This document shows positions 41,701-64,000 of a stretch of DNA of 64,000 nucleotides, one piece after another. The position numbers were made by a program, and so were the translations under genes. The number at the start of each line of letters is the position of its first letter. Position 1 is the first letter of the stretch. The DNA lies in assembly GCF_000830005.1 (NCBI RefSeq), contig NZ_CP010407.1, positions 372,001-436,000 on the forward strand. The letters are read 5' to 3'. Below the pieces are notes generated by a model. The model was given only the letters and a program-made list of their open reading frames with translations. It searched no databases and was not told the origin of the DNA. The DNA comes from Streptomyces vietnamensis (GTDB lineage Bacteria > Actinomycetota > Actinomycetes > Streptomycetales > Streptomycetaceae).

Positions 41701-41707
41701 GTCTGCC

Positions 41708-44685: not shown

Positions 44686-45686
44686 GGGGCCACCACCCCG
44701 GGGAGCTTCGGGTAGGCGCTGACCTGCCACAGGGCGTCGAGGCCGGTGAGGAAGCGGACGAGGCGCTGCAGACCCATGCCGAACCCGGCGCTGGCCGGCA
44801 TGCCCTCACGGGCCTCCTTGAGGTACCAGGCGTACTTGGCGGGGTTCTCGCCGCTCTCCCGCATGCGGGTGACGATGGTGGCGTAGTCGGCCTCGCGCTC
44901 GCTCCCGGAGACGAGCTCGCCGTATCCGTGCGGGGCGATGAGGTCGAAGTTGCGCAGGACGCCGGGGCGTTCGGGGTCCTCCCGGTCGTAGAAGCCGCGG
45001 GAGCCCTTGGGGTAGTCGTTGACGAAGAAGGGACGGTCGCTCTCCAGGGAGAGGATCCGTTCGCCGGCCCAGTCGATCTCGCCGTCGGGGTTCTGCGGGT
45101 GACCGGCGGCGAGGAGCCGGGCCACGGCGTCGTCGTGGGTGCGGACGTCGTACTTGCCGGCACGGACGTCGGCGAAGTCGCCCTCGATCCGGCCGAGTTC
45201 GGTCAGGATCTCGGGGACGGCCGTCCACACGTGCTCGGTGACGTGCGTCAGCAGTCCTGCGGCGATCTCCTGGGCGTCCTCGCGGCTCCCGTCGGCGATC
45301 TCCACGTCGATCTGGTGGAACTCGACGAGGTGACGGCCGGTGCCGGCGGTCTCCTCGGGCTCGACGCGCACGTTGGGGGCGACGTAGAAGAGCCGGGGGA
45401 AGCCGCGGAGGGACGCCTGCTTGTAGAGGATGGCGCTGGTCATCAGCTTGTACGGGTGGCCGTAGTAGTCGACGTCGAGGGCCTTGGCGCCGCGGCCGCC
45501 CGGGTCGGTGACGGGTCCGACGAGCGGGGGCAGCAGCTCGGTGAAGCCCTCGCCGCGCAGGAACGCACGGGCGGCGTGGAGGGCCTCCTGCTGGACGAGC
45601 ATCGCGGCGCGCAGCCGGGGCGAGCGGAGGTGTTCGCCCAGCGGGGGCGGGGTGGCCGGGGCACCGGTGGGGTGGGCGTTGTCCAT
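44682..45686 (-). CDS. AsnRS/AspRS catalytic-domain paralogue (asparagine-synthetase-like)
   Basis: A 334-residue class II aminoacyl-tRNA-synthetase fold without the N-terminal OB anticodon-binding domain. Motif 2 is VRVEPEET-GTGRHLVEFHQID (usual FRxE is VRVE here); motif 3 is GFGMGLQRLVRFLTGL; the Asp/Asn pocket region is like AsnRS. The best-known analogue is the archaeal asparagine synthetase descended from AspRS/AsnRS, which amidates aspartate with ATP. Between the glutamate mutase genes and the GltB-like gene it could adenylate and amidate 3-methylaspartate; that is inference. The ATG at 45686 follows a 20-bp tandem repeat. Confidence 0.85.
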   Translation of the reverse strand: MDNAHPTGAPATPPPLGEHLRSPRLRAAMLVQQEALHAARAFLRGEGFTELLPPLVGPVTDPGGRGAKALDVDYYGHPYKLMTSAILYKQASLRGFPRLFYVAPNVRVEPEETAGTGRHLVEFHQIDVEIADGSREDAQEIAAGLLTHVTEHVWTAVPEILTELGRIEGDFADVRAGKYDVRTHDDAVARLLAAGHPQNPDGEIDWAGERILSLESDRPFFVNDYPKGSRGFYDREDPERPGVLRNFDLIAPHGYGELVSGSEREADYATIVTRMRESGENPAKYAWYLKEAREGMPASAGFGMGLQRLVRFLTGLDALWQVSAYPKLPGVVAP

Positions 45687-45791: not shown

Positions 45792-47129
45792 TCAGACGGT
45801 GAGCGGGGTGGCCTGCGGGCGGTCGTGGCCTTCGCCGCTGTCGCGGTGGCTGTCCCTGTCGCGGTGCCGGGGGCTGTCGTACCGGTCGGCGACGTGGTGG
45901 AGGGCGGCGAGCAGGCCGGCCGAGGTGAGGGGGGCCGCGTCGGCCGCCGCGTCCGGGCGGATCGGCATCGCGCCGGTCCGGGCCCAGCGGAGCCGGCCCC
46001 CGGGGTCGACGAACCCGAGGGAGCGGCCGGCGTTGTCGGGATGGAGGCAGAAGGGAACGTCGAGCAGCCCTCGTTCGAAGGCGGCCGGCAGGGCCCGGGA
46101 CAGGTCGGGGTGGAGGCCGAGGACGGTCTCGACGAGGGTGCGGGCCTCCTCGTACACCTCACCGCCTCCTTCGGCCGCAGGATCCGGGGCCGGGGGTCCG
46201 GCGAGCGCGGCGGCCGCGGCGGCGGTCTCCAGGGCGCGGACGTTCTCCTCGACGGTCGGGAGGCGATGGGCCTCGGCGGTGGTCTTGACGATGAGGCGGC
46301 CCGCGCCGGAGCGCACGGCGAGGCGGGCGGAGGCCTCCAGGAGGCGGGTGGCGCCCTGTTCGGTGCGCGGATAGACGCCCATGTAGGTGTAGAGGACGAC
46401 GTGGTGGTCGATGCCGTCGGGCAGGAATTCGGCAGCGAGCCGGTGCAGGGCGCGCAGGGCCTCCTCGTCCTGGGCCGGGTCGGTCTGCTGGGCATAGCTG
46501 AGCGAGACGCTGCGCAGCCCGAACTGCATGAAGAACAGGCACTCCAGGACGCTCGTGGCCACCAGGAGGCCGGGCGGGCAGAGCTGCCCGAGCAGGCAGC
46601 CGCCGAAGCTCTCCAGATGGGGTACGGCTCCGGGGCGCGCCCCGGTGGCGAGGAGTTCGCAGGCGCGGGCCCAGGCGGTGACGGACTCCCGCAGGGGGGT
46701 GCGGCCGTAGGGCAGGCAGTACGAGACGGGGCCGCCTTCGGTGGCGTCGAGGCCGGCCGCGGTGAGTGCCCGGACGATGGCCAGGGGGCGGGCGGAGCCG
46801 TGCCTGACCTGTACGGGGAAGTCCGCGTCGAACAGCCCGTCGAGGACGGCCCGGGTGGTGGCCGGGGAGTGCGCGGCGATCGGGTAGCCGTTGAGGCGGC
46901 TCCCCTCGGCGACGGCGGCGCGGGCGGCGGCGAGGTCGCCGACGCGGGTGTAGCTGTCGACGGTCAGGGTGCCCGCGGTGTGGGCGGTGGCGGCCCTGGT
47001 CCGGGCGAGCCCGGCCCGCATGCGGCCGGGGTCGCCGAAGCCCATGCGGGGCTGGACGACGAGCCGGCCGGCGGCCGCGGACGCGGCGACGAAACGGCCG
47101 AAGTCGGGGGCGGGGGCCGGGGCGGTCAA
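45792..47129 (-). CDS. glmE: methylaspartate (glutamate) mutase, epsilon subunit
   Basis: A 445-residue TIM-barrel subunit of B12-dependent glutamate mutase, which interconverts L-glutamate and (2S,3S)-3-methylaspartate. Family stretches include VVQPRMGFGDPGRMRAGL, GYPIAAHSPATTRAVLDGL, VRHGSARPLAIVRAL, EGGPVSYCLPYGRTPLRES, LESFGGCLLGQLCPPGLLVA and LSYAQQTDPAQDEEAL. The start is an unusual TTG at 47129: it has an ideal AAGGAGG six bases upstream and its TTGA overlaps the sigma-subunit stop. The C-terminal 45 residues are low-complexity (His/Arg/Asp) and unlike the family. Similar subunits supply 3-methylaspartate in friulimicin, skyllamycin and vicenistatin pathways. Confidence 0.93.
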   Translation of the reverse strand: MTAPAPAPDFGRFVAASAAAGRLVVQPRMGFGDPGRMRAGLARTRAATAHTAGTLTVDSYTRVGDLAAARAAVAEGSRLNGYPIAAHSPATTRAVLDGLFDADFPVQVRHGSARPLAIVRALTAAGLDATEGGPVSYCLPYGRTPLRESVTAWARACELLATGARPGAVPHLESFGGCLLGQLCPPGLLVATSVLECLFFMQFGLRSVSLSYAQQTDPAQDEEALRALHRLAAEFLPDGIDHHVVLYTYMGVYPRTEQGATRLLEASARLAVRSGAGRLIVKTTAEAHRLPTVEENVRALETAAAAAALAGPPAPDPAAEGGGEVYEEARTLVETVLGLHPDLSRALPAAFERGLLDVPFCLHPDNAGRSLGFVDPGGRLRWARTGAMPIRPDAAADAAPLTSAGLLAALHHVADRYDSPRHRDRDSHRDSGEGHDRPQATPLTV

Positions 47130-47536
47130 GCCGGCACCTCCTTGCGGGCGCGTGCGGCGAGGAACTCGCGCAGGGCGTCCAGGTCCTCGCCGAGCACGGC
47201 GTCGCAGCCGGCCTCGGTCAGCCGCGCCACGTCCGCCTCCTGGCGGTGTCCGGCGACGCCGAGCTTGCCGCCGAGCACCACGGGGAGGCCGGCCAGGGCG
47301 GGTTCCGCGCGCAGTCGGCGGACGGCGGCGAGTCCGTCGCGGTAGCCGTGCCCGTTGACACTGCTGAGCACCACCGCGTCGGGCGCGTGCCGCAGACAGC
47401 CGGCGAGCAGCAGCTCGGCAGGGGCGCAGGGACCGAGCCCGACGACCTGGTGGCCCTGTTCCTGGAGGAAGAGACGGAGGTACACGAGATTCCATGTGTG
47501 GGAATCCGATGCGGTTCCGCTCAGGAGTATCTTCAT
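47126..47536 (-). CDS. glmS: methylaspartate (glutamate) mutase, cobalamin-binding S subunit
   Basis: A 136-residue B12-binding Rossmann protein. It begins MKILLSGTASDSHTWNLVYL with the lower axial His13 in D-S-H; the family motif DxHxxG reads DxHxxN here, as in several cluster-borne versions. SSVNGHGYRD and VVLGGKLG supply the Ser and Gly-Gly parts of the nucleotide-tail pocket. It forms the holoenzyme with the epsilon subunit. Start ATG at 47536. A hairpin terminator (47630-47664) separates it from the MbtH/NRPS genes, so the mutase operon may have its own promoter; AT-rich AAAATTAT lies about 10 bp before the ATG. Confidence 0.92.
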   Translation of the reverse strand: MKILLSGTASDSHTWNLVYLRLFLQEQGHQVVGLGPCAPAELLLAGCLRHAPDAVVLSSVNGHGYRDGLAAVRRLRAEPALAGLPVVLGGKLGVAGHRQEADVARLTEAGCDAVLGEDLDALREFLAARARKEVPA

Positions 47537-47629
47537 GGGTCGAGGATAATTTTCCGGGGATTCCGGAAGGGGAAGTACGACCGGCAGCAAGGACCGGCAC
47601 TTTCGTTCTGGGATTTCCCCACGGGAAAA

Positions 47630-47684: not shown

Positions 47685-47759
47685 GCCTTATGTGTTCGGG
47701 CCTTATGTGTTCGGACCTTACGCGTTCGGGCCTTATGTGTTCGGACCGTACGTGTTCAG
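47685..47759. repeat. 15-bp tandem repeat, five copies
   Basis: Units of exactly 15 bp at 47685, 47700, 47715, 47730 and 47745, consensus (G/A)CCTTATGTGTTCGG. The stop codon of the MbtH-like gene (47756-47758) lies inside the last unit, so the repeat is its 3' untranslated region and ends 20 bp before the terminator stem. The period is a multiple of three and the plus strand would read Pro-Tyr-Val-Phe-Gly repeats, but nothing indicates translation. Confidence 0.88.
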
Positions 47760-47971
47760 GCGTACTGGGCGACGAGGCTGCGCGGGCGGATGTCGGTCCA
47801 GTGGGCGGTGATGTACTCCAGGGCTTCGGCGCGGTTCCCGGCGCCCCAGACGCTGGTCCAGCCAGCCGGGATGTCCGCGAAGGCGGGCCACAGGGAGTGC
47901 TGGCCCTCGTCGTTCACGACGACGTGGAAGGTGCCCTCGGCGTTGTCGAACGGGTTGACGGACTCGCTCAT
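47756..47971 (-). CDS. MbtH-like protein
   Basis: A 71-residue MbtH-family chaperone of NRPS adenylation domains. Signature: [37 protein letters not shown] and [10 protein letters not shown]. Such proteins bind A domains and promote folding and activity. The ATG at 47971 overlaps the stop of the large NRPS gene (ATGA), so it is produced in proportion to it. Likely partners are the A domains of that protein and of the A-T didomain. The stop codon falls in a 15-bp tandem repeat. Confidence 0.96.
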
Positions 47972-50900
47972 GACTGGCTCCTCGTTTCTTCCTTCTGAAG
48001 TGCGGAGAGTTTCTCCGCGACAATTCTTCCGATTGTTTCGAGAGGTTCCGGTTCGGCCATCTGGAGATGGCCGCACTCGACGGTGTGATTGTCGATGACG
48101 CCCTCGGTGAAGGGAATCCAGGTGGCGGCGAGGGCGCCTTCCCGCTCCCCCGGCCGGCGGGCGGTGAAGAACACCGTGTCGGTGTCGGCGACGCCGGGCA
48201 CGTGCCGTGCCATGAGTGCGGCGTGGGTCTCGGAGGCGCGGAGCACGGCCCGGAGTTCGGCGTCGGAGAACCCGGCGAGGACGGGGTCCTCGCGGCGGAT
48301 CTCCGCCATCGCCGTGGCGAGGTCCCGCGCTTTCTCGGCCCTCGCCTCGGGCGGGAGCACGGAGACGCTGCCGGGTCCGGTCTGGTGGACGTCCATCAGC
48401 GCGAGCAGTTCGACCCGCTCGCCCGCCTCGCGGAGCCGTACGGCCATGGTGTGGGCGACGAGGCCGCCGTACGACCAGCCGAGCAGCCGGTACGGGCCCC
48501 AGGGCTGTACCCGCCTGATCTGCTCCAGGTAGTCGTCGGCCATCTGCTCGACGCTGCGCGGCCGGTGGCCGGGCTCGCTCAGCGCGCGGGCCTGCAGCGC
48601 GTACAGCGGCTGGTCGTCGCCCAGGTGGCGGGCGAGGCCCGCGTAGGCCCAGCCGACGCCGGTGCCGGGGTGGACGCAGAACAGCGGGCGGCGGGTGCCA
48701 CGGGTGCTGAGCGGGAGCAGGACGCCCAGGGCGGCGGCCGTGCCGTCGTCCTCGGGCGAGCCGAGCAGTCCGGCGGGGGTGGGCAGGCGGAACAGGTCGC
48801 GGACGGTGCGCTCGATGCCGAGGACGGAACGGACGCGGTTGACAAGGCGGACGCCGAGCAGCGAATGGCCGCCCAGGGTGAAGAAGTTGTCGTCGATGCC
48901 GACGCGGGGCACGTCGAGGATCTCGGCGAACAGCGCGCACAGCACCTCCTCGCGGGCGTTGCGGGGCTGCCGTCCGCCCTCGGCGGAGGCGGGGCGGTGC
49001 GGGGCGGGGAGCGCCGTGCGGTCGGGTTTGCCGTTGACGGTGAGCGGCAGGGCGTCGAGGACGACGACGGCGGAGGGCACGAGGTGCTCGGGGAGCGCGG
49101 TCCGTGCCTCGGCGAGCAGCTCGGCGATCAGTCGGGCCCCGGTGACCGCCGTGTCCTTGCGGGGGACGACGTAGCCGACGAGGGTCTTGTCGCCGGGCCG
49201 GTCCTCGCGGACCACGACGAGCGCCTGGCCGACCGAGGGATGCGCGGCGAGGGTCCGCTCGACCTCGCCGGGTTCGATCCGTACGCCGCGCAGCTTGATC
49301 TGGCCGTCCGCCCGTCCGAGGAACCGGAGTTCACCGGCGGGGGTCCACAGCACGCGGTCGCCCGTGCGGTACATGCGGCTGCCGTCCCGTTCGAACGGGT
49401 CGGGGACGAACCGCTCGGCGGTCAGCCCGGCCCGGCCGACGTATCCGCGGGCCACGTGCGCGCCGGCGATGTACAGCTCGCCGGGGACGTCCGGCGGGAC
49501 GGGTCGCAGCGCGTCGTCGAGGACGTGGCTGCGGGTGTTGTCCATCGGGCGGCCGAGGTGGAGTCCGGCGCCCCGCAGGGCGCGTTCGCCGGTGCCGAAC
49601 CACTGGTTGTGGGAGGCGAAGGTGGTCTCGGTGGGGCCGTAGGAGTGGACCAGGACGGTGTCGGGGCAGTGGGTGAGGACGCGCTGGACGGCGGCGGGGT
49701 TGGCGACGTCGCCGCCGGTCCACACCTCGCGCAGGAGTCTCAGGGTGTCCAGGCCCTCGTCGGCCATGACGTGGAAGAGGCCGACGGTGAAGTAGGCGGT
49801 GGTGACGCCGTGTTCGCGGACGGCGCGGGCGGTCTCGGCGAGGTCCGTGCCGTCGCCGCGGGTGAGGACGAGGCTGCCGCCGTTGAGGAGCGGCACCCAG
49901 ATCTCGAAGACGGAGGCGTCGAACCCGGTCGCCGAGTGGACCAGCATCCGGTGCGGTCCCCCGGCACGGACGTCGCGGTCGCGGGCGAGCTCCACCACGT
50001 TGCGGTGGGTGACGCCGACGCCCTTCGGGCGGCCCGTCGACCCGGACGTGAACATCACGTACATCAGGTCGTCCCCGGTGGCGGGAACGTCCTCGGCGAG
50101 GGGCTCCCCGGCGTCGGGCGCGTCCACGAGCAGGAGCGCCGGGACGACCACGACGGAAGCGTGGTCCTCGTCGGTCGCCACCAGCTGGACCTCGGCGTGG
50201 TCCTCGTCGGTCGCCAACCCGCGCACCCCGGCATGGTCCGCGTCGGCCGCCAACCCGCGCACCCCGGCATGGTCCGCGTCGGCCGCCAACCCGCGCACCC
50301 CGGCGTGGTCCTCGTCGGTCGCCACCAGCCGGACCCCGGCGTCCTCCAGCATCAGCCGGATCCTCGCCTCGGGAAGCCGCGGGTCCAGGGGCAGGTAGGC
50401 GGCGCCGCATTTGAGGACCGCGAGGGCCGTCACCACCAGGGACACGCCGCGTTCGAGGAGGACGCCGACGGTGTCGCCGCGGCGCACGCCGGCGGTCCGG
50501 AGACGGGCGGCCAGCGCGCCGGCGCGGGCGTCGAGTCCTCCGTAGCCGACGGTCTCCCCGTCGGTGATCAACGCGGGCGCGTCGGGGGTGCGCGCGGCCC
50601 GGCGGGCGATCAGCTCGTGGATCGTCTCCGGGGCGCCGGGGACCACGGCCGCGGTGTCGTTGTACTCGCTGACGAGGCGGAACCGGTCGGCGGCGGTGAA
50701 CAGGTCCACGTCCCCGATCCGTACGCCGGGGTCGGCGGCCGCTGCCCGCAGGGTCCGCTCCAGGTGGGCGGCGAGCAGCGCGGCGGTGGGGGCGTCGAAC
50801 AGGTCCGTGGCGTACTCCAGGCCGCCCGCGAGCCCGATCGGCCGCCCTTCGGCGTCCCGCCGCTCCTCCATCGCGAAGGTCAGGTCGAACTTGGTGGAGA

Positions 50901-53900
50901 CGGTGTCCAGGAGCGCCGGCCCGCCCTCCTGGAAGAGGCCCTTCGCGCCGGCGGCGTCGCCCGTGTAGTCGTGGTGGAGCTGGACGACGATCTGGGCCAA
51001 CGGGTGGTGGGCGGTGGTGCGGAGCGGGTTGAGGTGCTCGACGACCCGGTCGAAGGGGAGCTCCTGGTGCCCGTAGGCGGCGAGGTCGGTCTGCCGGACC
51101 CGGTCGAGGAGTTCGGTGAAGGTGGGGTCGCCGGAGGTGTCGGTGCGCAGCACGAGGGTGTTGACGAAGAAGCCGACCAGGTCGCCGAGGGATTCGTCGT
51201 CGCGTCCTGCGGTCATGGTGGCGAGCGGCAGGTCGGTGCCCGCGCCGTGCCGGGTGAGGACGGCGGCCAGGGCGGCCTGGAGGACCATGAACAGGGTGGC
51301 GCCGCTGCGCCGTGCCACGGCTTCGAGGGCCTGGTGGGTGGCGGCGTCGACGGTGACGGGGGCGCGTCCGCCGCGGTGGGTGGCCTCGGCGGGGCGGGGG
51401 CGGGCGGAGGGGAGCTCGAACACGGCGGGGGCGTCGGCGAGGGTCCTCTCCCAGAACTCCAGGTGGGCGGCGGCGGCCGGGCCGTCGATCAGGTCGCGCT
51501 GCCAGAGGGTGTAGTCGGCGTACTGGACGGGCAGTGGCCGCCAGGTGGGGTCCCGGTCCTCGGTGCGGGCCCGGTAGGCGGTGCCGAGGTCTGCGAGGAG
51601 GGGGCCGGTGGACCAGCCGTCGGCGGCGATGTGGTGGACGAGCAGGACGAGGACCTGTCCGCCGCCGTCGTCGGGGGTGACGAGGGTGGCCCGCAGGGGC
51701 GTCTCCTCGGCCAGGTCGAAGACGTGTCCGGCGGCTTCGGCGACGGTGGCCTGGAGCCGCCCGGCGGGTACGGACCGCACGTCGAGCGGGGGCCGGACGG
51801 CGGGCAGGATCTCCTGGTGGGGTTCGCCGTCGACGCTCCGGTAGCGGGTGCGCAGCACCTCGTGCCGGTCGGAGAGGTCGGTGAGGGCCTCGGCGAGGGC
51901 GACGGCGTCGAGGGGTTCCGCCGGCCTGAGGACGAGGGGGATGTTGTACGAGGCGCTGGGCCCTTCGAGCGTGTCGATGAACCACAGCCTGCGCTGGGCG
52001 TACGACAGGGGGATGCGTGCGGGCCGGTCCGCGCGCGGCACCGGGCGGGGGCGTACCGGCTCCGGGACGCCGCCCGTCTCCGGCGTGGTGGACCGGTCGG
52101 CGATGCGGCGTGCGAGGGCGTCCGGGGTGGGCGCGAGGAGCAGGTCGCGGACCTGGACGTCGGCGCCGAGGCGGGCGCGGATCCGGTTGGCGAGGCGTAC
52201 GCCGCTCATGGAGTGGCCGCCGATGGTGAAGAAGCCTTCGTGGGGGCCGACCTGGTCGAGGCCGAGTACTTCCGCGAAGAGTTCCCGCAGGGTGTCGGTG
52301 TGCGGGGCGGGCGGCTCCGCACGCGTGGGTGCGGTCGCCTCGGCGGCGCGCGCGGCGGTGCGGGCGCGCCGTTCGTCCAGGGCGTGCCGGGTCGCGGGGT
52401 CGACGAGGCCGTTGTCCCGGATCCGGGCCTCGGGGTGCTCGGCGGCGGCGCGCAGGGCGCGCTCCAGGGCGGCGAGCAGGATGCGGGCGGTGTCCTCGTC
52501 GAGTACGTCGCGCGCGTACTCCAGGCCGAGCCGGAGTCCGGCGGGGGCGCCGTCGGCGTCCCGGAGTTCCTCGAAGGCGGCGGTGAGGTCGAACTTGGTG
52601 GTGGCCGGTCCTTCGCCGGCGAAGCGGCCCGGGATGGCGCCGAGGTGGAAGGGCCCGCCGTCGGGGCCGGTGGTCCGCAGGGTGAGCATCACCTGGAAGA
52701 GCGGGTGGACGCCGGGTGTGCGGGGCGGGTTGAGGTGTTCCACGAGGAGGTCGAAGGGGAGCCGCTGGTGGGCGAAGGCGGCGAGGTCGGTGTCGCGGAC
52801 CCGGTGCAGGAGGTCGGTGAAGGCGGGGTCGCCGCTGGTGTCGGTGGGCAGGACGAGGGTGTTGACGAAGAAGCCGACGAGCTCGTCGAGGGCCTCGTCG
52901 TCGCGTCCGGCGACGGGGGTGCCGAGGACGGTGTGCTCTCCGGCGCCGGCGGCGCGCAGGGCGAGGCCGAGGGCGGCCTGCGCCACCATGAGCAGGCTGG
53001 CGTCGTGCTCCTCGGCGAGGCGGACGAGCCGTGCGTGGACGGCCGGTTCGACGGCGGCGGTCACCAGGCCGCCGTCGTGGGCGCGGACGGCGGTCCTGGG
53101 CCGGTCGAGGGGCAGGTCGGTGGCGGCGGGCAGGCCGTCCAGGGCCGTACGCCAGTGGGCGAGGCCCCGGGCCACGAGGGAGTCGGGGTCGTCGGCTTCG
53201 CCGAGGAGGTCGTTCTGCCAGAGGGTGTAGTCGGCGTACTGGACGGGCAGCGGCTCGCGTTCGGGCGCGCGGCCCTCGGCGCGCGCGGCGTAGGCGTGGG
53301 CGAGGTCGGTCATCAGCGGTTCGAGGGACCAGCCGTCGCCGGCGACGTGGTGGAGCAGGACGGCCAGGGTGGCGCCGGGGCCGTCGTCCGGCAGGAACAG
53401 GGCGACGCGCAGCGGGAGTTCGCGGGACAGGTCGAAGGTCTCGGCGGTGAACCGGGCGACCCGCTCGGCGCGTTCCCCCGCCGGGCACTCGACGGTGCGC
53501 AGCCGTACGGCGGTGGGGGCGAGGACGTGCTGGTACGGCTCGTCGTCGGGGGCCGGGAACACAGTGCGCAGCACCTCGTGCCGTTCGGCGAGGTCGGCCA
53601 CCGCGGCGGCGAGGGCGGCCCGGTCGGGGGCCGTCTCCAGGTCGAGGACGATCGGCATGTTGTAGGCGGCGGACGGGCCGTCGAGCTGGCCGACCAGCCA
53701 CAGCCGGCGCTGGGCGTGGGAGAGCGGGACGCGGTCCTCGGCGGGCAGGGGTTCCTCGTGGACGACGGGCAGGCGCGGGTCGGCCGTGCGCAGCGCCTTG
53801 CGGTTGATCTTGCCGGAGCTGGTACGGGGCAGGGCGACGACGATCGAGACCGCGGGCACGGCGGCGGCGGGCATGCGCGCGCGTACCCGGTCGCGCAGCT

Positions 53901-55221
53901 CCTCCGCGCCCGTGCCGCCCTCCGTCACCACGAAGGCGACGAGCCGCTTGACGCCGTCGCCGTCCTGCTGCGCGACGACGGCGGCCTCCCGGACCGCGGC
54001 GTGGCCGGCGAGGACGGAGTCGACGGCGGCGGGGTCGATGCGCTGGCCGCCGATCTTCACCTCGTCGTCGAGGCGGCCGTGGTACAGGATCTGCCGGTCC
54101 TCGCCGATGGTGACGAGATCGCCGGTGCGGTAGGCGCGCTCGCCGTCGAGCTCGGTGAAGCGGCGGGCGTTCAGTTCGGGCCGGTGGAGGTAGCCGCGGG
54201 TCAGGCCGCCGCCGAGCAGCCACAGTTCGCCGTCGACGACGGCGGCGCGGACGCCGGGCAGCGGCCGGCCGATGGGGATGGGTCCGGCGTCGTGGCGGCT
54301 GAGGTCGGCCACGGTGGCGACGACGGTGGTCTCGGTGGGGCCGTAGCCGTTGAGGAGGCGGATCCGGTCGCCGACCAGGCCCCGCCACTGGGCGACGCGC
54401 TCGGGCAGGGCGGCCTCGCCGTAGATCATCACGGTGCGCAGGCCCTCGGGGAGGGCGACGGAGCCGGTGGTGAGGACGTAGACGAGCTCGTGCCAGTAGG
54501 CGGCGGGCAGGTCGAGGTAGGTGACGCCGTGCCGGGCACAGCCCGCGAGGAGTTCGGCCACGTCGAGCATGTCGTCGGTGCGCAGGACGAGGGTGCCGCC
54601 GGCGCCGAGGGTCGTGAAGATCTCCTGGATGCTGGCGTCGAAGTGCAGCGGGCTGAACTGGAGGACGGCGTCGTCGGGCCCGATGCCGTAGGCGGGGGTG
54701 GCACCGGCGATGAAGTGCGCGAGCGAGTCGTGGGCGACGACCACGCCGTTGGGGGTGCCGGTGGAACCGGAGGTGTAGATGACGTAGGCCGCGCCCTCTC
54801 CGGCGCCGGGGCCTCCGAGGACGAGCTCGCCGTGCCGGGCGACCTCCGCCGGGCCGGGCGCCAGGTCGCCGCAGGCGTCTTTCAGGATCGCCTCGTTGCG
54901 GGCGTCGGGGGCCTGGACGTCGAGGGGCAGGTAGGCGGCGCCGGTGCAGAGAACGGCGAGCAGACCGACGATGGCGTCGATGCCGCGCGGCCGGTGGAGG
55001 GCGACGAGCCGGCCGGGCCCCGCGCCCTGCGCGGCGAGCTCCCCGGCCCGGTCCCGTACGGCGGCGTCCAGCTCGGCGTAGGTGAGGCGGGCGTCGGCGT
55101 GGACCAGGGCGGGGGCGTCGGGGCGGGTACGCGTCTGGTGGGCGATCAGGTCGAGCACGGGCGGCGCGGGGGCGGGAGAGGGTCCGCCGTCGAGCAGGTC
55201 TTCCGTTCTGCTGGGGGGCAT
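47968..55221 (-). CDS. NRPS: A-C-T-C-A-T-TE
   Basis: A 2417-residue synthetase. A1 (about 25-490; [33 protein letters not shown]) is followed after about 25 residues by C1 (497-930, [11 protein letters not shown]) with no carrier between; T1 [11 protein letters not shown] near 1000; C2 (1069-1510, [11 protein letters not shown]); A2 (1517-2070, [20 protein letters not shown]); T2 [11 protein letters not shown] near 2114; type I thioesterase (2150-2410) with Ser in GWSYGG near 2248 and a late His in ECGHLQM. My hand-aligned specificity codes are D-A-Q-D-M-Y-G-V-V (A1) and D-A-F-Y-W-G-S-F-A (A2); I cannot assign either. A2 carries five 12-residue repeats (1628-1687). No epimerase or methyltransferase. 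ATG at 55221 behind GGAGGA. The TE releases the peptide by hydrolysis or cyclisation. Confidence 0.93.
50159..50338. repeat. 36-bp tandem repeat (five copies) inside the A2 domain
   Basis: Five exact-period 36-bp units: 50159-50194, 50195-50230, 50231-50266, 50267-50302 and 50303-50338. On the coding (minus) strand each encodes 12 residues of the type [12 protein letters not shown]. The 60-residue insertion lies between core motifs A2 and A3 of the second adenylation domain. Units 3 and 4 are identical and the outer ones differ at a few bases, so the array is young. Copy changes would keep the frame. Confidence 0.9.
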
Positions 55222-55816: not shown

Positions 55817-58800
55817 TCAGTTGGGGCGGCGGGCTCCCGCCGCCGTGCGGCGGCGCAGTGCCGGGGCGGCGGCCGGGCGGGAGGCCGGCGCGTTCGGGTC
55901 GGCGGCGGGCTCGGCCAGACGGCGGGCGAGGGAAGCCGCCGTCGGGTTGCGGAAGACGTCCCGCAGGGTGAGGTCCTGGCCGAACTCGGCGCGGATCCGG
56001 TTGAGGAGCCTGACCGCGAGCAGGGAGTGCCCGCCCGACTTGAAGAAGTTGTCGTCCCGGCCGATCGGACGTCCGCCGAGGACGTCCCGGAAGACCCCGA
56101 GGAGGCGTTCCTCCCGGCCGTCCGGGCCCACCTCCGTCACCGCCTCGACGGGCGCGTCGGCGTGAGCGCCGGGCGCGGGCAGCCGGGTCACCAGGACGAC
56201 GCGGGCGGGGGTCAGGTACTCGGGCAGCCGCTCGGCGGCCCAGCCGCGCAGCGTCGCCTCGTCGGCGCCGCCGGGGACGCGGGTGACGTACGCGTACAGG
56301 CGGTCGTCGCGGACGGCCACGGCCGTTCCCGTCACGTCGGGGTGCCGGCCGAGCACGTCCTCGACATGGCCCGGCTCGACCGGGTAGCCGCCCACGGTGA
56401 GCACGGCCACGGGCCGCAGGGACCCGTCCGCCTCGGCGAAGGCCCGCCGGCCGGTGGTGCGCAGGCCGCCGCCCGGGGTCCGCTCGTGGACCTCGCCGGG
56501 CACCCGTACCGGCGCGGGGCGTCCCCGTTCGTCCAGGACCACGGCCTTGTCGGCGGGGGCCGCCGGGCCGTACGACGGGCCGGAGAGCGCGGTGCCGGGG
56601 TCGGCGGCGAACGCGTCGAGGGTCTCGGTCAGCCGCCGGGCCAGGAGAGCGGCGGTGTCCGCGTCGTAGAGCGCGGTGGCGTACTCCAGGGCGCCCCGCA
56701 GGCCGGCCGGTCCGCCGTCGGCGTCGACCAGCTCGGTCAGCGCGAAGGTGAGGTCGGACTTGGCGCCCACCGCGCTGAACGCGACCGGTTCGCCGTCGAG
56801 GACGGACGGGGTCCCGGCCCCGCTCGCCGCCGCGTGCACCTGCAGCATCACCTGGACGAGCGGGGCGTGCGCGGCGGAGCGGTGCGGGCTGAGGTGCTCG
56901 ACGAGCCGGTCGAAGGGGAGGTCCTGGTGGCTGTACGCGGCGAGTCCGGACTCGCGGACCCGGCGGACCAGTTCGGTGAAGTCGGGGTCGCCGGAGGTGT
57001 CGGTGCGCAGCACCAGCGTGTTGACGAAGAAGCCGACGAGCGGGTGCAGGGCGTCGTCGGCGCGGCCGGCGACGGTGGTGCCGACCGCCAGGTCGGTGCC
57101 CGCGCCGTGCCGGGTGAGGAGGGCGGCGAGGGCGGCCTGTACGACCATGAAGAGGGTGGCGCCGTTGCTCCGGGCGACGCGCAGCAGGGCCCGGTGGGTG
57201 ACGGCGCTCACCTCGAAGGCGGTGAGGGCGCCGGCGCCGTCGGTCTCGGCGGGGCGCGGCCGGTCGGTGGGCAGGGCGAGGAGCGGCGGCAGCCCGTCCA
57301 GGGCCTCGCGCCAGTGGGCCAGTTGTTCGCCCGCGACGCCGTGCTCGCCGTCGAGGAGCTCGTGCTGCCAGAGGGTGTAGTCGGTGTACTGGACGGGCAG
57401 CGGCTCCCAGTCGGGGGCCCGGCCCCCGGCGCGAGCCCGGTAGGCGGTGTCCAGGTCGGCGAGCAGGCAGCCCGTCGACCAGCCGTCGCCGGCGATGTGG
57501 TGGACGAGGAGCACCATGGTCTGGCCGCCGTCGCCGTCCGTCACGAGCGAGGCCCGGAAGGGGATCTCGGTGGCCAGGTCGAAGACGTGTCCGGCGGCCG
57601 CGTCGACGGCCGCGCGCAGTGCGTCCGGGCCGTCGGCGCCGATCTCCTGGAGCACGGGCGTCGCGCCGGCGAGCACCTGCTGGTACGGCTCCCCGCCCGC
57701 CGTCGGGTAGACGGTGCGCAGCACCTCGTGTCGGCCGGCGACGTCCGCGAGGGCGGCGGCGAGCGTGGCCGGGTCGACGGGGCGGTGCAGCCGGGTCACC
57801 ACGGGAATGTTGTAGGTGGCGCTGGGGCCTTCGAGCCGGCCCAGGAACCAGAGGCGGAGCTGAGCGGCCGACAGCGGGACGCGTGCGGGCCGCAGCGCGT
57901 CGGGGACGGGTCGCAGCGGGGGGCGGGCGGGGCCGTCGTCCCGCTCGTCGAGGCGGCGGAGGAGCTGCCGGGGGGTCGGAGCGAGGAAGACGTCGCGGAT
58001 CGCGGCCTGGAGGCCGAGGGCGCCCCGGATGCGGTTGGTGAGCTTGCCGGCGAGCAGGGAGTGTCCGCCGAGCTTGAAGAAGTTGTCCCCGGGGCGTACG
58101 TCGTCCCGGTCGAGGATCTCCGCGAACAGGCCGCGGATGATCTCCTCTCGGGGATCCGCCGCGGAACCCGTCCTGGTTCCCCGTCCGTCGCCGGATGTCC
58201 TCCGTTCGGCGAGGGCGCGGGCGAGGGCGTCGTGCCGGCGGTCGAGCCCCCGGCGCTCCTCGACGGTGAGCAGGTCGACCTCGCTCAGCGGCGTGTCGCC
58301 GGACCGCTCGGCGAGGGCCGTCAGGGCGCGCTGGAACAGCGCGAGCAGGATCCGTGCGGTGTCCTCGTCGTACAGGTCCGTCGCGTACTGCAGCCCGAGG
58401 AGCACTCCCCCGGGTTCGCCGTCGGTGTCGTGCGTCTCGACGCAGTGGAAGGAGAGGTCGAACTTGGCTCCGGCGAGGTCGGCGCCGTCCGCCTCGCCGG
58501 AGATGCCGCCGAGGCGGACGGTCGTGTCCTGTGCGGTCTGCGCGCTGACCATCACCTGGAAGAAGGGGTGGCGGCCGAGGGAGCGTTCGGGGTTGAGGTC
58601 CTCGACGAGGAGGTCGAACGGCAGGTCGTCGTGGGCGAAGGCCGCCAGGTCCCCGTCCCGTACGCGCCGCACGAGCTCGGCGAGGGTGGGGTCCCCGGTC
58701 ATGTCGGTGCGCAGGGCCAGGGTGTTCACGAAGAAGCCGACGAGCGCGTGCAGGTCCTCCTCGGGCCGGCCCGCCACCGCCGTGCCGACGACCACGTCCT

Positions 58801-61288
58801 CGCCTGCGCCGGCCGCCCGGAGGGCGAGGGACAGCGCGGTCCGGACGACCATGAAGAAGGTGGCGCGGCTGCTGCGGGCGACACCGGCGAGCGCCTTGTG
58901 GACCAGGGCGTCCACCTCGGCCGTCACCACGGCCCCCCGGTGGCTGGGTTCCGTGAGCCGGGGCCGGTCGGCGGGCAGCCGGGTCTCGGCCGGGATGCCG
59001 TCCAGGGCCTTGCGCCAGTACGCCAACTGGTCGTCGCGGACGCCGTGTTCGCCGTCGAGGAGCTCGCGCTGCCAGAGGGCGTAGTCGGTGTACTGGACGG
59101 GCAGCAGCTCCCACTCGGGGGCACGGCCCTCGGCGCGGGCCCGGTAGGCGCGGTCGAGGTCGGCGAGCAGGGAGCCCACCGACCAGCCGTCCGTCGCGAT
59201 GTGATGCACCGAGAGGACGAGGACCGCCGTTCCGTCCGCCACCTGGAACAGCCGTACGCGGAGGGGCAGTTCGCTCGTCACGTCCAGCGGGATCCTGGCG
59301 AAGTCGGTCGCCCGCGCCTGCGCTTCCTCAGGCGCGGCGCACTCCTCGACCTCGACCCGCGGCTCCGGCACGTCGAGGACGCACTGGTACGGCTCTCCGT
59401 CCCGTACCGGATAGACCGTCCGCAGCACCTCGTGACGGTGCATCACGTCCCGTACGGCCGCCTCCAGGACGACCGCGTCGGGCTGGGCCTCCAGCTGGAG
59501 CACCATGGGCGCGTTGTACGCCGGGGAGGAGCCTTCGAGCCGGTTGAGGAACCACAGCCGGCGCTGGGCGTACGACAGGGGGACGGGGTCGGGGCGGTGC
59601 TCGTCCGGCACGGGGCGCAGGGCCGGGCGGCGGGGGCCGGTGCCCCGCTCGCCGAGGCGGCGAAGGAGCTGCCGGGGGGTCGGGGCGAGGAAGACGTCGC
59701 GGATCGCGGCCTGGAGGCCCAGAGCCCCTCGGATGCGGTTGGTGAGTTTGCCGGCGAGCAGGGAGTGTCCGCCGAGCTTGAAGAAGTTGTCCCCGGGGCG
59801 TACGTCGTCCCGGTCGAGGATCTCCGCGAACAGGCCGTTCAGGATCTCCTCGCGGGGGTCCCGGACGGAGCGGGTCCCGGTCCGCTCGCTCTCGCCCGCG
59901 GTGCGGGGCCGTGGCTCCTCGGCGAGGGCCCGGTGGCGGCGGTCGAGGGCGTCGCGCTCGCCGTCCGTGAGGAGCCGGACGCGGCTGAGAGGGGTGCTGT
60001 CCCGCTCTTCCGCGAAGGCCGTCAGCGCGCGCCGGAAGAGCGTGAGGAGGATCCGTGCGGTGTCCTCGTCGTACAGGTCCGTCGCGTACTGCAGTCCGAG
60101 GAGCACCCCGCCGCCGTCGGCCCTCTCCTGGCAGTGGAAGCTCAGGTCGAACTTGGCGGTGGCCAGGTCCGCGTCGTCGAGGACGGCGGGGACGGTCCCG
60201 AGCCGGACGGTCGCGTCCTCCCGCCGGGTCTGCGCGCTCAGCATGACCTGGAAGAACGGGTGGCGGCCTAGGGAGCGTTCGGGGTTGAGGTCCTCGACCA
60301 GGAGGTCGAACGGCAGGTCCTCGTGGGCGAACGCGACCAGGTCCGTCTCGCGGACGCGGTCCACGAGCGCCCCGAGGCCGGGGTCCCCGGAGAGGTCCGT
60401 GCGCAGGGCCAGGGTGTTCACGAAGAACCCGACGAGCTCGTGCAGGTCCTCCTCGGGCCGGCCCGCCACCGCCGTGCCGACCACGATGTCGTCCCCCGCG
60501 CCCGCCGCCCGCAGGGCGAGGGCCAGGGCGGCGCGGGCCACCATGAAGAACGTGCCCCGCCGGGCGCGTGCGACGGCGGTGAGGGCCCGGTGGGTTCCGG
60601 CGTCCAGCTCGGCCGTGACCATCGCGCCCCGATGGCTGGGCTCCGTCGGCCGGGGTCGGTCGGCGGGCAGTCGCGTCTCGGCCGGGATGCCGTCCAGGGC
60701 CTTGCGCCAGTGGGCGAGTTGTTCGTGCGCGGTGCTGTCGGGGTCCTCGGGGTCTCCGAGCATGTCCCGCTGCCACAGCGCGTAGTCCGCGTACTGGACG
60801 GGCAGCGGCTCCCAGCCGGGGGCGCGGCCCTCGCCGCGGGCGCGGTAGGCGGTGTCGAGGTCGGCGAGCAGGCAGCCCACCGACCAGCCGTCCGTCGCGA
60901 TGTGGTGCACGAGGAGGACGAGAACGGCCGTTCCGTCCGTCACCCTGAACAGCCTCACCTGGAGGGGGAGTTCGCGCGTCACGTCCACGGGGAGCCGGGC
61001 GAACGCCGTCGCCCGGGCCTCCACGTCCTCGCCCGCCGCGCACTCCTCCACCTCGAAGCGCACGTCGACGTCGTCGAGGATCTGCTGGTACGGCTCCTCG
61101 TCCCGGGCCGGGTAGACGGTACGGAGCACCTCGTGCCGCTCCACCACGTCCCGTACCGCCGCTTCGAGCACCGCCGGGTCGGGCATCGATCCCAGCCGGA
61201 GCACCACGGGGGCGTTGTAGGCCGAGGAGGCACCCTCGAGCCGGTTCAGGAACCACAGCCGACGCTGGGCGTAGGACAGGGGGATCAC
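55817..61288 (-). CDS. NRPS without intact adenylation domains: C-T-C-T-C-(A remnant)-T
   Basis: A 1823-residue protein. C1 (1-450, LVHHIATDGWS near 131), T1 ([13 protein letters not shown] near 499), C2 (570-1000, SVHHIATDGWS), T2 (near 1078), C3 (1136-1560, LVHHIAGDGWS), a degenerate adenylation C-terminal piece (about 1570-1710: RTTGRRAFAEADGSL, VGGYPVEPGHVEDVL), T3 (DNFFKSGGHSLLA near 1754). All three C domains have HHxxxDG and all carriers the Ser, so condensation should work, but there is no core A3 P-loop, no A5 and no A10 Lys anywhere. The carriers must be loaded by A domains of other proteins. Modules 1 and 2 are near-identical over the T region. The start is GTG at 61288 behind GAGGAG. 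Confidence 0.92.
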   Translation of the reverse strand: MIPLSYAQRRLWFLNRLEGASSAYNAPVVLRLGSMPDPAVLEAAVRDVVERHEVLRTVYPARDEEPYQQILDDVDVRFEVEECAAGEDVEARATAFARLPVDVTRELPLQVRLFRVTDGTAVLVLLVHHIATDGWSVGCLLADLDTAYRARGEGRAPGWEPLPVQYADYALWQRDMLGDPEDPDSTAHEQLAHWRKALDGIPAETRLPADRPRPTEPSHRGAMVTAELDAGTHRALTAVARARRGTFFMVARAALALALRAAGAGDDIVVGTAVAGRPEEDLHELVGFFVNTLALRTDLSGDPGLGALVDRVRETDLVAFAHEDLPFDLLVEDLNPERSLGRHPFFQVMLSAQTRREDATVRLGTVPAVLDDADLATAKFDLSFHCQERADGGGVLLGLQYATDLYDEDTARILLTLFRRALTAFAEERDSTPLSRVRLLTDGERDALDRRHRALAEEPRPRTAGESERTGTRSVRDPREEILNGLFAEILDRDDVRPGDNFFKLGGHSLLAGKLTNRIRGALGLQAAIRDVFLAPTPRQLLRRLGERGTGPRRPALRPVPDEHRPDPVPLSYAQRRLWFLNRLEGSSPAYNAPMVLQLEAQPDAVVLEAAVRDVMHRHEVLRTVYPVRDGEPYQCVLDVPEPRVEVEECAAPEEAQARATDFARIPLDVTSELPLRVRLFQVADGTAVLVLSVHHIATDGWSVGSLLADLDRAYRARAEGRAPEWELLPVQYTDYALWQRELLDGEHGVRDDQLAYWRKALDGIPAETRLPADRPRLTEPSHRGAVVTAEVDALVHKALAGVARSSRATFFMVVRTALSLALRAAGAGEDVVVGTAVAGRPEEDLHALVGFFVNTLALRTDMTGDPTLAELVRRVRDGDLAAFAHDDLPFDLLVEDLNPERSLGRHPFFQVMVSAQTAQDTTVRLGGISGEADGADLAGAKFDLSFHCVETHDTDGEPGGVLLGLQYATDLYDEDTARILLALFQRALTALAERSGDTPLSEVDLLTVEERRGLDRRHDALARALAERRTSGDGRGTRTGSAADPREEIIRGLFAEILDRDDVRPGDNFFKLGGHSLLAGKLTNRIRGALGLQAAIRDVFLAPTPRQLLRRLDERDDGPARPPLRPVPDALRPARVPLSAAQLRLWFLGRLEGPSATYNIPVVTRLHRPVDPATLAAALADVAGRHEVLRTVYPTAGGEPYQQVLAGATPVLQEIGADGPDALRAAVDAAAGHVFDLATEIPFRASLVTDGDGGQTMVLLVHHIAGDGWSTGCLLADLDTAYRARAGGRAPDWEPLPVQYTDYTLWQHELLDGEHGVAGEQLAHWREALDGLPPLLALPTDRPRPAETDGAGALTAFEVSAVTHRALLRVARSNGATLFMVVQAALAALLTRHGAGTDLAVGTTVAGRADDALHPLVGFFVNTLVLRTDTSGDPDFTELVRRVRESGLAAYSHQDLPFDRLVEHLSPHRSAAHAPLVQVMLQVHAAASGAGTPSVLDGEPVAFSAVGAKSDLTFALTELVDADGGPAGLRGALEYATALYDADTAALLARRLTETLDAFAADPGTALSGPSYGPAAPADKAVVLDERGRPAPVRVPGEVHERTPGGGLRTTGRRAFAEADGSLRPVAVLTVGGYPVEPGHVEDVLGRHPDVTGTAVAVRDDRLYAYVTRVPGGADEATLRGWAAERLPEYLTPARVVLVTRLPAPGAHADAPVEAVTEVGPDGREERLLGVFRDVLGGRPIGRDDNFFKSGGHSLLAVRLLNRIRAEFGQDLTLRDVFRNPTAASLARRLAEPAADPNAPASRPAAAPALRRRTAAGARRPN
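57961..58150. repeat. near-identical T-domain segment of modules 1 and 2 (copy in module 2)
   Basis: This 190-bp block is repeated at 59665-59854, offset exactly 1704 bp (568 codons, one C-T module). Long stretches are identical, far above the similarity of the C domains around them, indicating recent duplication or gene conversion. It encodes T domain plus the following linker. Confidence 0.8.
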
Positions 61289-61346: not shown

Positions 61347-63320
61347 TCAGGCGTCCCGTGCGGCCAACAGCTCCTCGATGTGGGCGGCGAGGTCACGCAG
61401 TCGCGGGTGGGCGTAGACGGCCTTGACCGGGAGCGCCACGGACAGCTCGGCCCGCACGCGGGAGACGAGCTTGATGGCGAGCAGGGAGTGGCCGCCGAGC
61501 TTGAAGAAGTTGCCGTCCGGGCCGATCGACGCGGCGCCCAGGACCTGGGTCCACACACGGGCGATGAGCTCCTCCGCGCGGCCGTTCAGGCCGTCGGTGC
61601 CGGTGCCGGTGGTCGGGGGCTCCGCGTCCGCCGCCGGGGTTTCGAGCCGGGTGGGCAGTGCGGACCGGTCGAGCTTGCCGCTGGGCGTCGTGGCGAACCG
61701 GTCCACCGCGACGTACGCGCTCGGCACCATGTAGGCGGGCAGGCTCTCCGAGAGGGCGGCGCGCAGGGCGGTGGCGTCGCCGCCGCGGTGGTAGGCGATC
61801 AGGCAGGCGGTGCCGCCGGCGTCCTCGCCGAGGATCACGGCCGCCTCGGCGACGCCGTCCTCGCGGGTGAGGGCGGCCTCGATCTCCGGGAGTTCGATGC
61901 GGTGTCCGCGCAGCTTGACCTGGCCGTCGGCGCGGCCGAGGTAGACGAGCCGGCCGTCGGGGAGCAGCCGGCAGCGGTCGCCGGTGCGGTACATGCGCCC
62001 GCCGGGGGCGTCACCGGAGACGATGTCGGCGACGAAACGTTCCGCCGTGAGTCCGGGGCGGCGGCGGTAGCCGCGGCCCACGCGCGGGCCCGCGAGGTAC
62101 AGCTCGCCGGACTCCCCCGGCCCGACCGGAGCGAGCTTCTCGTCGAGCAGGCGCATCCGGAGGCCCGGCAGGACGGCGCCGATGTGCGGCTCCCCCGGCC
62201 AGTCGATCCAGCCGGCGGTGGCGTCGACGGTGCACTCGGTCGGACCGTACACGTTGAGCGCGCGCAGCAGGCCGGACCGGTGGGCGGCGGCCAGCCGGTC
62301 CCACAGCGCCGGACTGATCGCCTCGCCTCCGACGAGGAGGGTCAGCGGGCGCGGGCCGCCGTCCTCGGTGAGCAGGTCGAGGAGCGGGTCGGCGTGCGAG
62401 GGGGTGATGTCCAGATCGGTGAGGGCCTGCTCGTCGACGAAGGCGGCGAGCAGCGACGGGTCGCGGCGGGTCTCCTCGTCGATCATGACGAGGGTGTCGC
62501 CCCGGCAGAGCCGTGTCCACTGCTGCACGGAGGCGTCGAACGACGGGGAGGCGTTCCAGCCGACCCGGCGGCCCTCGCCCGTGGCGGCGCCCGCCTCCTC
62601 CAGTTCCTTCAGCAGCAGGGAGGCGGCGGCGCGGCCGATCTCGACGCCCTTGGGGCGGCCGGTGGAACCGGAGGTGTAGATGACGTAGGCGAGCGTGTCT
62701 CCGGTGACCGGAACGGGCGTGTACGGGGACGGGGCCGGGTCACCGCTCGGGGCGGCCGCCAGCTCGGCGAACGTCACGGCGCGGGCACCGGGGGCCGGGG
62801 AGCCGGCCGTACCACTCGTACCGTCCGTGCCGTCCGTGCCGTCCAGGACCACCAGGTCGGCGCCGGAGTCCTCGACGAGGTAGCGGCGGCGGTCGGCGGG
62901 CAGCGCCGGGTCGACCGGCAGGTAGGCGGCGCCGGCCGTGAGCGTGCCGATGATCGCGGTGACCAGGGCGGCGCCCCGGGGCAGGCAGAGCGCCACGACG
63001 CTCTCCGGGCCGACGCCGAGGGCACCGAGCCGGGCGGCGAACACGGCGGCCTCGGCGCGCAGCTCGTCGAAGGTGAGGCGGCGGTCACCGGCGACGACGG
63101 CGGTGCGGCCGCCGGGAGCGGTGGCGAACCGTGCCAGGAGGTCCGCCGCGCCGGTTCCGGCGGCGACGCAGGTGCCGCAGGAGCAGGCCTCCGAGACGGA
63201 GGGGGCCGATGAGGCCGGGGTGGCGGAGGAGGCCTGGGGGGCGAAGGGGGCCTGGGCGGCGGAGGGGGCCTGGGCGGCGGCCGGTACGACAGTGGAACGC
63301 TCGGGGAGGACGGCGGTCAT
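61347..63320 (-). CDS. stand-alone NRPS adenylation-thiolation didomain (A-T)
   Basis: A 657-residue A-T protein. A domain: [16 protein letters not shown], core A3 [15 protein letters not shown]5 [14 protein letters not shown]7-A8 [14 protein letters not shown] and [14 protein letters not shown]10 [12 protein letters not shown] domain [15 protein letters not shown] near residue 608. My hand alignment to GrsA gives D-A-Q-D-L-G-V-V-D, the code I know for glutamine (lichenysin/surfactin-type loading modules use Gln or Glu here). An N-terminal extension of about 50 residues is Ala/Ser/Gln-rich with CSCGTC. ATG at 63320, 8 bp after the dioxygenase stop. It may supply glutamine to the adenylation-less modules and be the platform for hydroxylation. 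Confidence 0.93.
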
Positions 63321-63328
63321 GGCGGGGC

Positions 63329-64000
63329 TCACCTTCCGTACAGGGTGGTGGAGGGGGCGGAGGTCGGGGAGCAGTCGGACAGCCGTACCGGCTCGCCCAT
63401 GGCGACGACGATCTTCCGGTCTCCGGTGTACGACTCCCGGCCGTGCGCGCAGAGGATGTTGTCGACGAGCATCAGGTCGCCGGCCTGCCAGCTCTCCCGC
63501 AGGGTGACCGCCTGGTACACGTCGTTGATCGCGTCCACCTCGGCGTCGGTGAGGACGGTGCCGTCGCCCAGGCGGGTGTCGAAGGGCAGGCCGTCCGCGC
63601 CGAACGTGTCGGTGAGGACCTCGCGGACGTCCTCGTCGAGGCTGCGGGCGTTCCAGAACGCGAAGTGGTTGAACCAGGAGCGTTCGCCGGTCACCGGGTG
63701 GGTGATGACGGCGGAACGGCGCTGGCGGGTGCGCAGGGTGTCCTCGTCGAGCCACTCGTAGCCGATCGCGTTCGCGTCGCAGTACTCCTCGGCGCCCGCG
63801 GGCTCGTCCGACGAGAAGGCCTTGCGCCAGGGCATGCCCGCCAGGTCGGAGTAGTTGCGCACGAGGAGCCAGCCGGCCTCGGCGAACCGCGCGACCAGGT
63901 CCTGCGGCAGCAGGGCGAGGGCCTTGCGCATGTCGCCGACGGTGGTCGCGCCACCGGTCTCGGGGGCGGTGACGCAGCCGAAGAGCAGGACGCCGGGGAA
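63329..64000 (-). CDS. TauD/TfdA-family Fe(II)/2-oxoglutarate dioxygenase, C-terminal part (cut by window edge)
   Basis: The last 223 codons of a non-heme iron oxygenase, open at the right edge: the frame continues upstream of the internal ATG at 63931 with [18 protein letters not shown], which is family sequence. Further landmarks: [20 protein letters not shown], the clade-specific [14 protein letters not shown], and the late iron-ligand His plus 2-oxoglutarate Arg region [16 protein letters not shown]. The first iron motif (HxD/E) is outside the window. It resembles SyrP/AsnO-like oxygenases that hydroxylate the beta carbon of free or carrier-bound amino acids. Immediately upstream of the A-T gene, its likely partner. 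Confidence 0.88.

Follow-up and report, generated by a model that had tools for sequence, protein, structure and literature searches.

A conserved nonribosomal peptide synthetase protein of three condensation-carrier units with a vestigial adenylation domain in Streptomyces vietnamensis, and a candidate glutamine loader encoded beside it

Organization of the Gene Cluster

The window analyzed here is the whole 64,000-nucleotide stretch G000:C1:372001-436000 of the Streptomyces vietnamensis genome, and the cluster that it contains was followed past the window edge in that genome. In order of transcription, the cluster starts with regulator-like genes (recognized by eye), a C-A-T-C-A-T-C-A-T synthetase (C, condensation; A, adenylation; T, carrier), a thioesterase, a SyrP-like TauD dioxygenase, and an A-T didomain. 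These are followed by a synthetase protein without a working A domain (here, the A-less protein), an A-C-T-C-A-T-TE synthetase, an MbtH-like protein, two glutamate mutase subunits, an AsnA-like protein, an FMN glutamate-synthase-like protein, an MFS transporter, and a phosphopantetheinyl transferase. The genes inside the window are:

40960..41784, minus strand, phosphopantetheinyl transferase (Pfam ACPS)
41708..43000, minus strand, MFS transporter (Pfam MFS_1)
43399..44730, minus strand, FMN glutamate-synthase-like protein (Pfam Glu_synthase 6.5e-19)
44682..45686, minus strand, asparagine-synthetase-A-like class II synthetase paralogue (NCBIfam NF005052, 408.4 bits, cut-off 368)
45792..47129, minus strand, glutamate mutase large subunit, MutE family (Pfam Met_asp_mut_E 3.4e-83; below the NCBIfam cut-off)
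47126..47542, minus strand, glutamate mutase small subunit, B12-binding (Pfam B12-binding 2.3e-11; below the NCBIfam cut-offs)
47756..47971, minus strand, MbtH-like protein, so named for its translated sequence
47968..55221, minus strand, synthetase A-C-T-C-A-T-TE, downstream partner (Pfam domains; same layout in relatives)
55817..61288, minus strand, A-less protein C-T-C-T-C-(A remnant)-T, 1823 aa (open frame, Pfam, relatives with the same layout)
61347..63320, minus strand, stand-alone A-T didomain, code DAQDLGVVDK, proposed off-line loader (Pfam; code by alignment)
63329..64000, minus strand, SyrP-like TauD dioxygenase running past the window (match G000:C1:435347-436483; Pfam TauD 2e-18 on the in-window part)

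Counting the upstream synthetase outside the window, the cluster encodes nine carriers and six A domains. An earlier reading of this DNA from its sequence alone had given the cluster three A domains, to which the synthetase beyond the window edge adds three. Three carriers sit in modules without an A domain, and a fourth, T4 of the downstream synthetase, presumably relies on the A domain (A1) at the N-terminus of its own protein.

The downstream synthetase begins A-C-T rather than C-A-T, and its second A domain carries in-frame repeats of ~12 residues ahead of the TSGSTG motif (~50150-50330). Between this gene and that of the A-less protein lie 595 bases (55222-55816) with four minus-strand copies of CGTTGTGGGC, whose plus-strand starts are at 55676, 55719, 55757, and 55800.

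Both the B12-binding and the catalytic subunit of glutamate mutase score above their Pfam cut-offs but below the NCBIfam equivalog cut-offs (40.5/110, 37.8/135.8, and 150.8/390.1 bits), and by these scores the enzyme is taken to be a divergent branch. On its own, the large subunit is found in 81/199 genomes; in all six genomes that belong to both samples and contain the A-less orthologue, the two lie on one contig within ~13 kb of each other. The dioxygenase belongs to the TauD family, as SyrP-type hydroxylases do, and its putative role as a hydroxylase of carrier-bound amino acids rests on its adjacency to the A-T gene.

The A-less Protein

The minus-strand frame 55817-61558 has no stop along its whole translated length, and GAGGAG directly before the GTG at 61288 supports a start there, which gives 1823 aa. 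The protein can be divided as follows:

59945..61288, minus strand, C1 domain, HHIATDG at 60887-60907 (Pfam stretch 90-538 of P0001; motif)
59660..59875, minus strand, T1 carrier, serine codon 59762-59764, FFK before LGGHS
58244..59590, minus strand, C2 domain, HHIATDG at 59186-59206, 76% identical to C1 (limits approximate)
57956..58171, minus strand, T2 carrier, serine codon 58058-58060, 93% identical to T1
56546..57886, minus strand, C3 domain, HHIAGDG at 57482-57502 (limits approximate)
56141..56542, minus strand, vestigial adenylation domain (Pfam AMP-binding_C, decay series, AlphaFold core pLDDT 75-90)
55922..56137, minus strand, T3 carrier, serine codon 56024-56026, FFK before SGGHS
55817..55921, minus strand, C-terminal tail with PALRRRT, a possible docking motif that also occurs in the upstream synthetase

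Pfam finds Condensation three times (2.8e-250), PP-binding three times (3.9e-41), and AMP-binding_C once (7.8e-10, 40 bits against a cut-off of 24.5), whereas the AMP-binding core matches at positions 321-378 of 384 only, with 11.4 bits against a cut-off of 29.9. The profile search thus detects no complete A domain, just a C-terminal part. The TSGSTG-type A3 is absent from the protein (P0005) by motif search, and A5 and the A10 lysine were not found by eye. The catalytic motifs of the C and T domains are all in place (HHIATDG, HHIATDG, and HHIAGDG, and three GGHS serines). This is, therefore, a nonribosomal peptide synthetase by its C and T domains, but one that departs from the canonical arrangement in which each elongation module has its own A domain, since none of the three modules contains an A core. 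The start, the domain order, the intact C and T motifs, and the missing A3, A5, and A10 had all been proposed in the sequence-only reading and stand. The A remnant noted there is also present; its extent is now placed at ~130 residues, which keep an A8-like GGYPVEP and the core of the C-terminal subdomain.

A frameshift or assembly error that deleted A domains from an ordinary gene, the artefact which that reading had flagged, can be rejected because relatives from many independent genomes share the layout. The C1 domain is 89-91% identical to C1 of two relatives (L004 and L006), whereas C1 and C2 of the same protein are only 76% identical, and the C duplication, therefore, predates that clade.

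Relatives and Distribution

A protein search scored 7982 candidates and gave 6106 matches, of which the best 120 were listed, including the window's own protein. Among these best 120 of 6106, 77 (own included) have the layout C-T-C-T-C-A_sub-T and 21 the two-unit layout C-T-C-A_sub-T, the remainder being proteins with larger remnants, split or partial proteins, and other synthetases. Between P0005 and P0110, a TSGSTG-type motif occurs only in P0051 and P0096. The C and T motifs are intact in 104 of 106 listed proteins, the exceptions being P0018 (one HHxxxDG short) and the partial P0062.

A genome scan retained 75 loci, and the A-less-protein cluster is represented by L003-L034, some of which are two pieces of a single genome, and by two broken assemblies (L037 and L038), which were omitted from the code, carrier, tail, and co-occurrence counts as their synthetase frames are broken throughout. 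When 295 Streptomyces genomes were searched with the remnant, a clear orthologue came up in 10 of them, counting the window's own (E <= 3.1e-26, the following match being at 3.8e-17); in an eleventh, an orthologue piece lies at a contig edge.

A-less C-T units also occur in other single proteins, namely, L039 (Kitasatospora mediocidica), P0121 (S. lydicus), and L035/P0051 (Allonocardiopsis); L039 further contains relatives of the mutase gene and of the AsnA-like and FMN genes. The view that three A-less modules in a row would be very unusual, therefore, needs adjusting: the layout is real, but it belongs to a conserved family and has counterparts in unrelated synthetases.

The Vestigial Adenylation Domain

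Relatives of the A-less protein preserve a graded series of A-domain decay. In P0107 (Actinokineospora), the A domain is almost full-length and shares 61.5% identity with the intact one of P0115, but it has lost TSGSTG, and N replaces its first code aspartate. P0122, L033, and P0096 are further gone, L020, P0033, L016, and L019 lack the middle, and the window's protein keeps only the end. With other remnants excluded from the intact set, the nearest intact A_sub on the tree is that of P0115 for 31 of 32 remnants. By BLAST, the remnants of P0107, P0096, P0122, and L033 match A domains of the upstream type, that of L020 matches A2 of the downstream synthetase, and P0033 is ambiguous. The third module once had its own A domain, probably of the upstream-synthetase type, and later lost it.

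The dN/dS of the remnant is 0.25-0.34 against 0.24-0.32 for C3 in three near pairs, 0.35 against 0.25 in a fourth, and 0.45-1.19 against 0.18-0.36 in the four other pairs. An AlphaFold model of module 3 has a mean pLDDT of 65, too weak for a fold search, with the remnant core E-H-E-E-H-E at 75-90. We read the remnant as a vestige that is still folded in some lineages. The notion that the A-less modules are passive or decaying and add nothing deserves almost no credence: one A domain has clearly decayed, and the remnant evolves faster than C3 in 5/8 pairs, but the C and T domains remain at a dN/dS of 0.09-0.49 in 8/8 pairs, and their motifs are kept across the family as described earlier.

A Glutamine-type A-T Didomain Accompanies the A-less Gene

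Specificity codes were extracted from an alignment for which the A-T sequence served as anchor. The A-T didomain gives DAQDLGVVDK (DAQDLGLVDK in some relatives), which reads as the classic glutamine code, and all 28 such A genes read DAQDLG[VL]VDK (29 rows, the window's own being entered twice). The code of downstream A1 varies between DAQDMYGVVK and DAQDIYAVVK, with DAEDVGTVVK in more distant relatives; hand reading and alignment differ at one position of this code. Downstream A2 reads DAFYWGSFAK, and the three upstream domains read DALLFVGIYK, DALQFGGGFK, and DALQFGGGFK.

The A-less gene is present in 27 loci among L003-L034, four of which start inside the gene at a contig end (L011, L019, L022, and L029). 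In all 23 loci that extend far enough, the glutamine A-T lies upstream of it, 22 times as an A-T frame and once (L015) with a frameshifted T. A conserved separate A domain, therefore, stands beside modules that have no working one, as expected of modules served in trans. Locus L015 looks like a natural fusion of glutamine A domain and A-less protein, an idea that was rejected because the carrier frameshift merges the frames.

SyrP-like genes also adjoin A-T genes with the code DIWQSTADDK in five other genomes (L121, L122, L123, L125, and L126), so the pairing of hydroxylase and A-T seems to recur as a cassette. Elsewhere in the S. vietnamensis genome, a second synthetase cluster (G000:C1:7160000-7219900; L145-L147) has one C-Ac-T module with an A_sub vestige only, a stand-alone A-T with the code DSKDFGLVDK, and two SyrP-like genes, and perhaps supplies that one module in trans in a similar way. 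The A-less carrier of this second cluster reads FFA, not FFK.

A Basic Residue Before the Carrier Serine

The position five residues before the phosphopantetheine serine (Ser-5), in the loop that precedes it, is K or R in 91/91 rows comprising the carrier of the glutamine A-T (Tgln, 28), T1 (25), T2 (13), and the last T (25), and in 0/84 rows of other carriers from the same clusters; these rows include two entries for the window's Tgln and two for each of its three upstream carriers. Across the listed A-less family, own included, the residue is basic in 105/105 first, 84/84 second, and 105/105 last carriers.

One should keep in mind what this residue does not mean. In the background, 15/201 carriers are basic at Ser-5, all with Arg; they come from five loci, and each belongs to an ordinary module that includes an A domain. 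In P0096, too, a carrier served by its own A domain reads FFR; a basic residue alone is, therefore, no proof of trans loading. It is also absent from the A-less carriers of unrelated synthetases (0/8: L039, L035/P0051, P0121, P0116, and the genome's second cluster), and it is thus not a general mark of A-less modules either. A module with an A fragment in L036 reads FFD at its carrier. The argument accordingly rests on the sharp split inside these clusters.

The FFK pattern was seen first and tested afterward. As a control, every alignment column was scored for each of the 112 ways in which two to five of the seven carrier classes can be grouped, and the sole perfect column belongs to the grouping of A-less carriers plus Tgln; four other groupings scored 0.92-0.94, and, the pattern having been noticed beforehand, the signature by itself is worth about 1-5 in 112. 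Kinship does not account for it: the window's Tgln shares 35-42% identity with T1-T3, whereas T1 and T5 share 55%. Alternatively, it could be the hydroxylase that reads this residue. For comparison, a capreomycin study models arginine contacts between a carrier and a trans-acting A domain (PMC12400406).

Order of the Assembly Line

The C-termini of the proteins were searched for the tail motif [LI][RK]RR[TS]. As first grouped, it was found in 20/24 rows under the upstream synthetase and 21/23 under the A-less protein, but four of the upstream rows were A-less proteins with larger remnants, one was a downstream protein cut at the locus end, and the upstream protein of L027 had been placed under "other." On recount, the tail is present in 17/20 upstream synthetases (misses: an N-run in L009, LTRRT in L024, and LRRRA in L031) and 25/27 A-less proteins (misses: L007 and L026), and in 99/107 listed A-less proteins with A permitted at the last place. 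It was found at the end of none of 27 glutamine A-T proteins and none of 13 other synthetase ends.

In the partial protein P0115 (Pseudonocardiaceae bacterium, metagenome assembly), an A-T unit with the upstream synthetase's code, DALQFGGGFK, runs straight on into C-T-C-T-C; the carrier served by that A domain reads FFD, and the two A-less ones read FFR. The tails and this fusion suggest that the upstream synthetase hands the chain to C1 and that the A-T stands off-line.

Proposed Mechanism and Alternatives

Our preferred reading, which we regard as probable but by no means assured, is that the A-less protein is a working elongation block whose carriers T1-T3 are all charged in trans by the neighboring glutamine A-T. 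The chain would pass from the three upstream C-A-T modules to the A-less protein, which would add three residues, and on to A-C-T-C-A-T-TE for two more and release, eight residues in total. The off-line A-T would recognize the basic residue (K/R) that its own carrier and T1-T3 have in common at Ser-5, and three consecutive glutamine-derived residues would be inserted as a result; the SyrP-like enzyme probably β-hydroxylates glutamine while it is carrier-bound. The product is predicted to be a peptide of about eight residues with three consecutive glutamine-derived, probably hydroxylated residues. Loading in trans by one or more other A domains of the cluster and a run of one residue had both been raised in the sequence-only reading. 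With the glutamine A-T as the best candidate, both fit the tails, the fusion, the Ser-5 signature, and the co-occurrence of the A-T with the A-less gene, and to that extent are partly supported.

The mutase and the AsnA-like protein may supply methylaspartate or methylasparagine. No A code in the cluster resembles the usual Asp/Asn code, and the usual Thr, Asp, and Ser codes are absent from it.

Because the glutamine A-T has its own T, a start-unit role is invited. It would then be the start module, and T1-T3 would be loaded by the N-terminal A1 of the downstream synthetase, which would adjoin T3. The A-T indeed has no C domain and is encoded immediately before C1, and A1 has no preceding C. 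We nevertheless hold this to be unlikely: T4, the cis carrier of A1, is basic at Ser-5 in 0/25 rows, the A1 code varies while the carrier signature is invariant, the A-T lacks the tail, and in P0115 another module sits directly before C-T-C-T.

Supply could also be mixed, with the A-T charging T1 and T2 and another A domain charging T3, whose module holds the A fossil. T3 differs after the serine (mostly VRL, against GKL/SKL in T1/T2), and the lost A domain of its module resembles those of the upstream synthetase, but T3 bears the same K/R in 25/25 rows and 105/105 proteins, which makes us doubt this arrangement quite strongly.

A third route would have the A-T and the hydroxylase make hydroxyglutamine on the A-T's own carrier, from which a SyrC-like aminoacyl shuttle would move it to T1-T3, the basic residue being the contact for the shuttle or hydroxylase. 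The SyrP-like gene adjoins the A-T, and SyrB1/SyrC offers a precedent (PMC8949500). No shuttle-like gene was found among the cluster genes scanned, and the nearby thioesterase has the serine nucleophile motif (GHSMG) in 13/13 cases; we think this route very unlikely, though less so than the passive-module notion dismissed earlier.

Direct charging of T1-T3 by the glutamine A-T lends itself to a more general model, which we offer tentatively and as somewhat short of an even chance. One off-line glutamine A-T with its hydroxylase would serve any carrier that is basic at Ser-5, the number of C-T units (two and three are seen) would alone set the length of the oligo-(hydroxy)glutamine, and redundant cis A domains would decay. 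If this is true, the cluster is a natural case in which bare C-T units, all supplied by a single loader, are duplicated to alter the length of a peptide, and a one-residue candidate recognition rule becomes available for synthetase engineering, where A-domain swapping is the usual difficulty. The series from near full-length pseudo-domain to short remnant would show a module becoming trans-served, and software that counts one residue per A domain would presumably miscount the product.

Comparison with Known Systems

Literature searches, which for the most part did not reach subscription-only papers, returned no recognized description of the A-less family or its product. Within the literature searched, four features appear to be new: a proposed loader that is separate from the A-less protein it would serve as a whole, the variation in unit number, the carrier signature, and the decay series. 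Trans loading of an A-less module, and one A domain serving three residues, are already in print, and the present system would be a shared-loader variant of what is known for shorter runs.

Two reported compounds were considered. Bonsecamin, as far as the accessible text describes it (PMC8400726), involves one A-less termination module and has no visible relation to this cluster. Lipopeptin, from Streptomyces, contains methylasparagine and β-hydroxyglutamine, the building blocks suggested by the cluster's tailoring genes, and shows that the two can co-occur in one Streptomyces peptide; it has one hydroxyglutamine along with Thr, Asp, and Ser residues (PMC10172682, from the portion available). 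Lipopeptin itself was rejected as the product on A-domain codes.

In the available part of PMC8949500, a stand-alone A-T complements a module without a working A domain in syringomycin (SyrB1-SyrE) and in ramoplanin/enduracidin; there the module is served singly, whereas here there are three in one protein. In the capreomycin system, mass spectrometry has shown a trans-iterative A domain at work: CmnA-A1 serves the carrier of its own module and, in addition, the A-less CmnI, and an N-terminal extension of the carrier is given a role in recognition (PMC12400406). That case concerns one A-less module and Dap, and this one concerns three modules and a candidate residue at Ser-5. The lugdunin synthetase of Staphylococcus lugdunensis is described as having one A domain that serves three residues (PMC8163882). 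The present cluster may differ in its layout, with the candidate loader encoded as a two-domain protein of its own and the A-less run as another.
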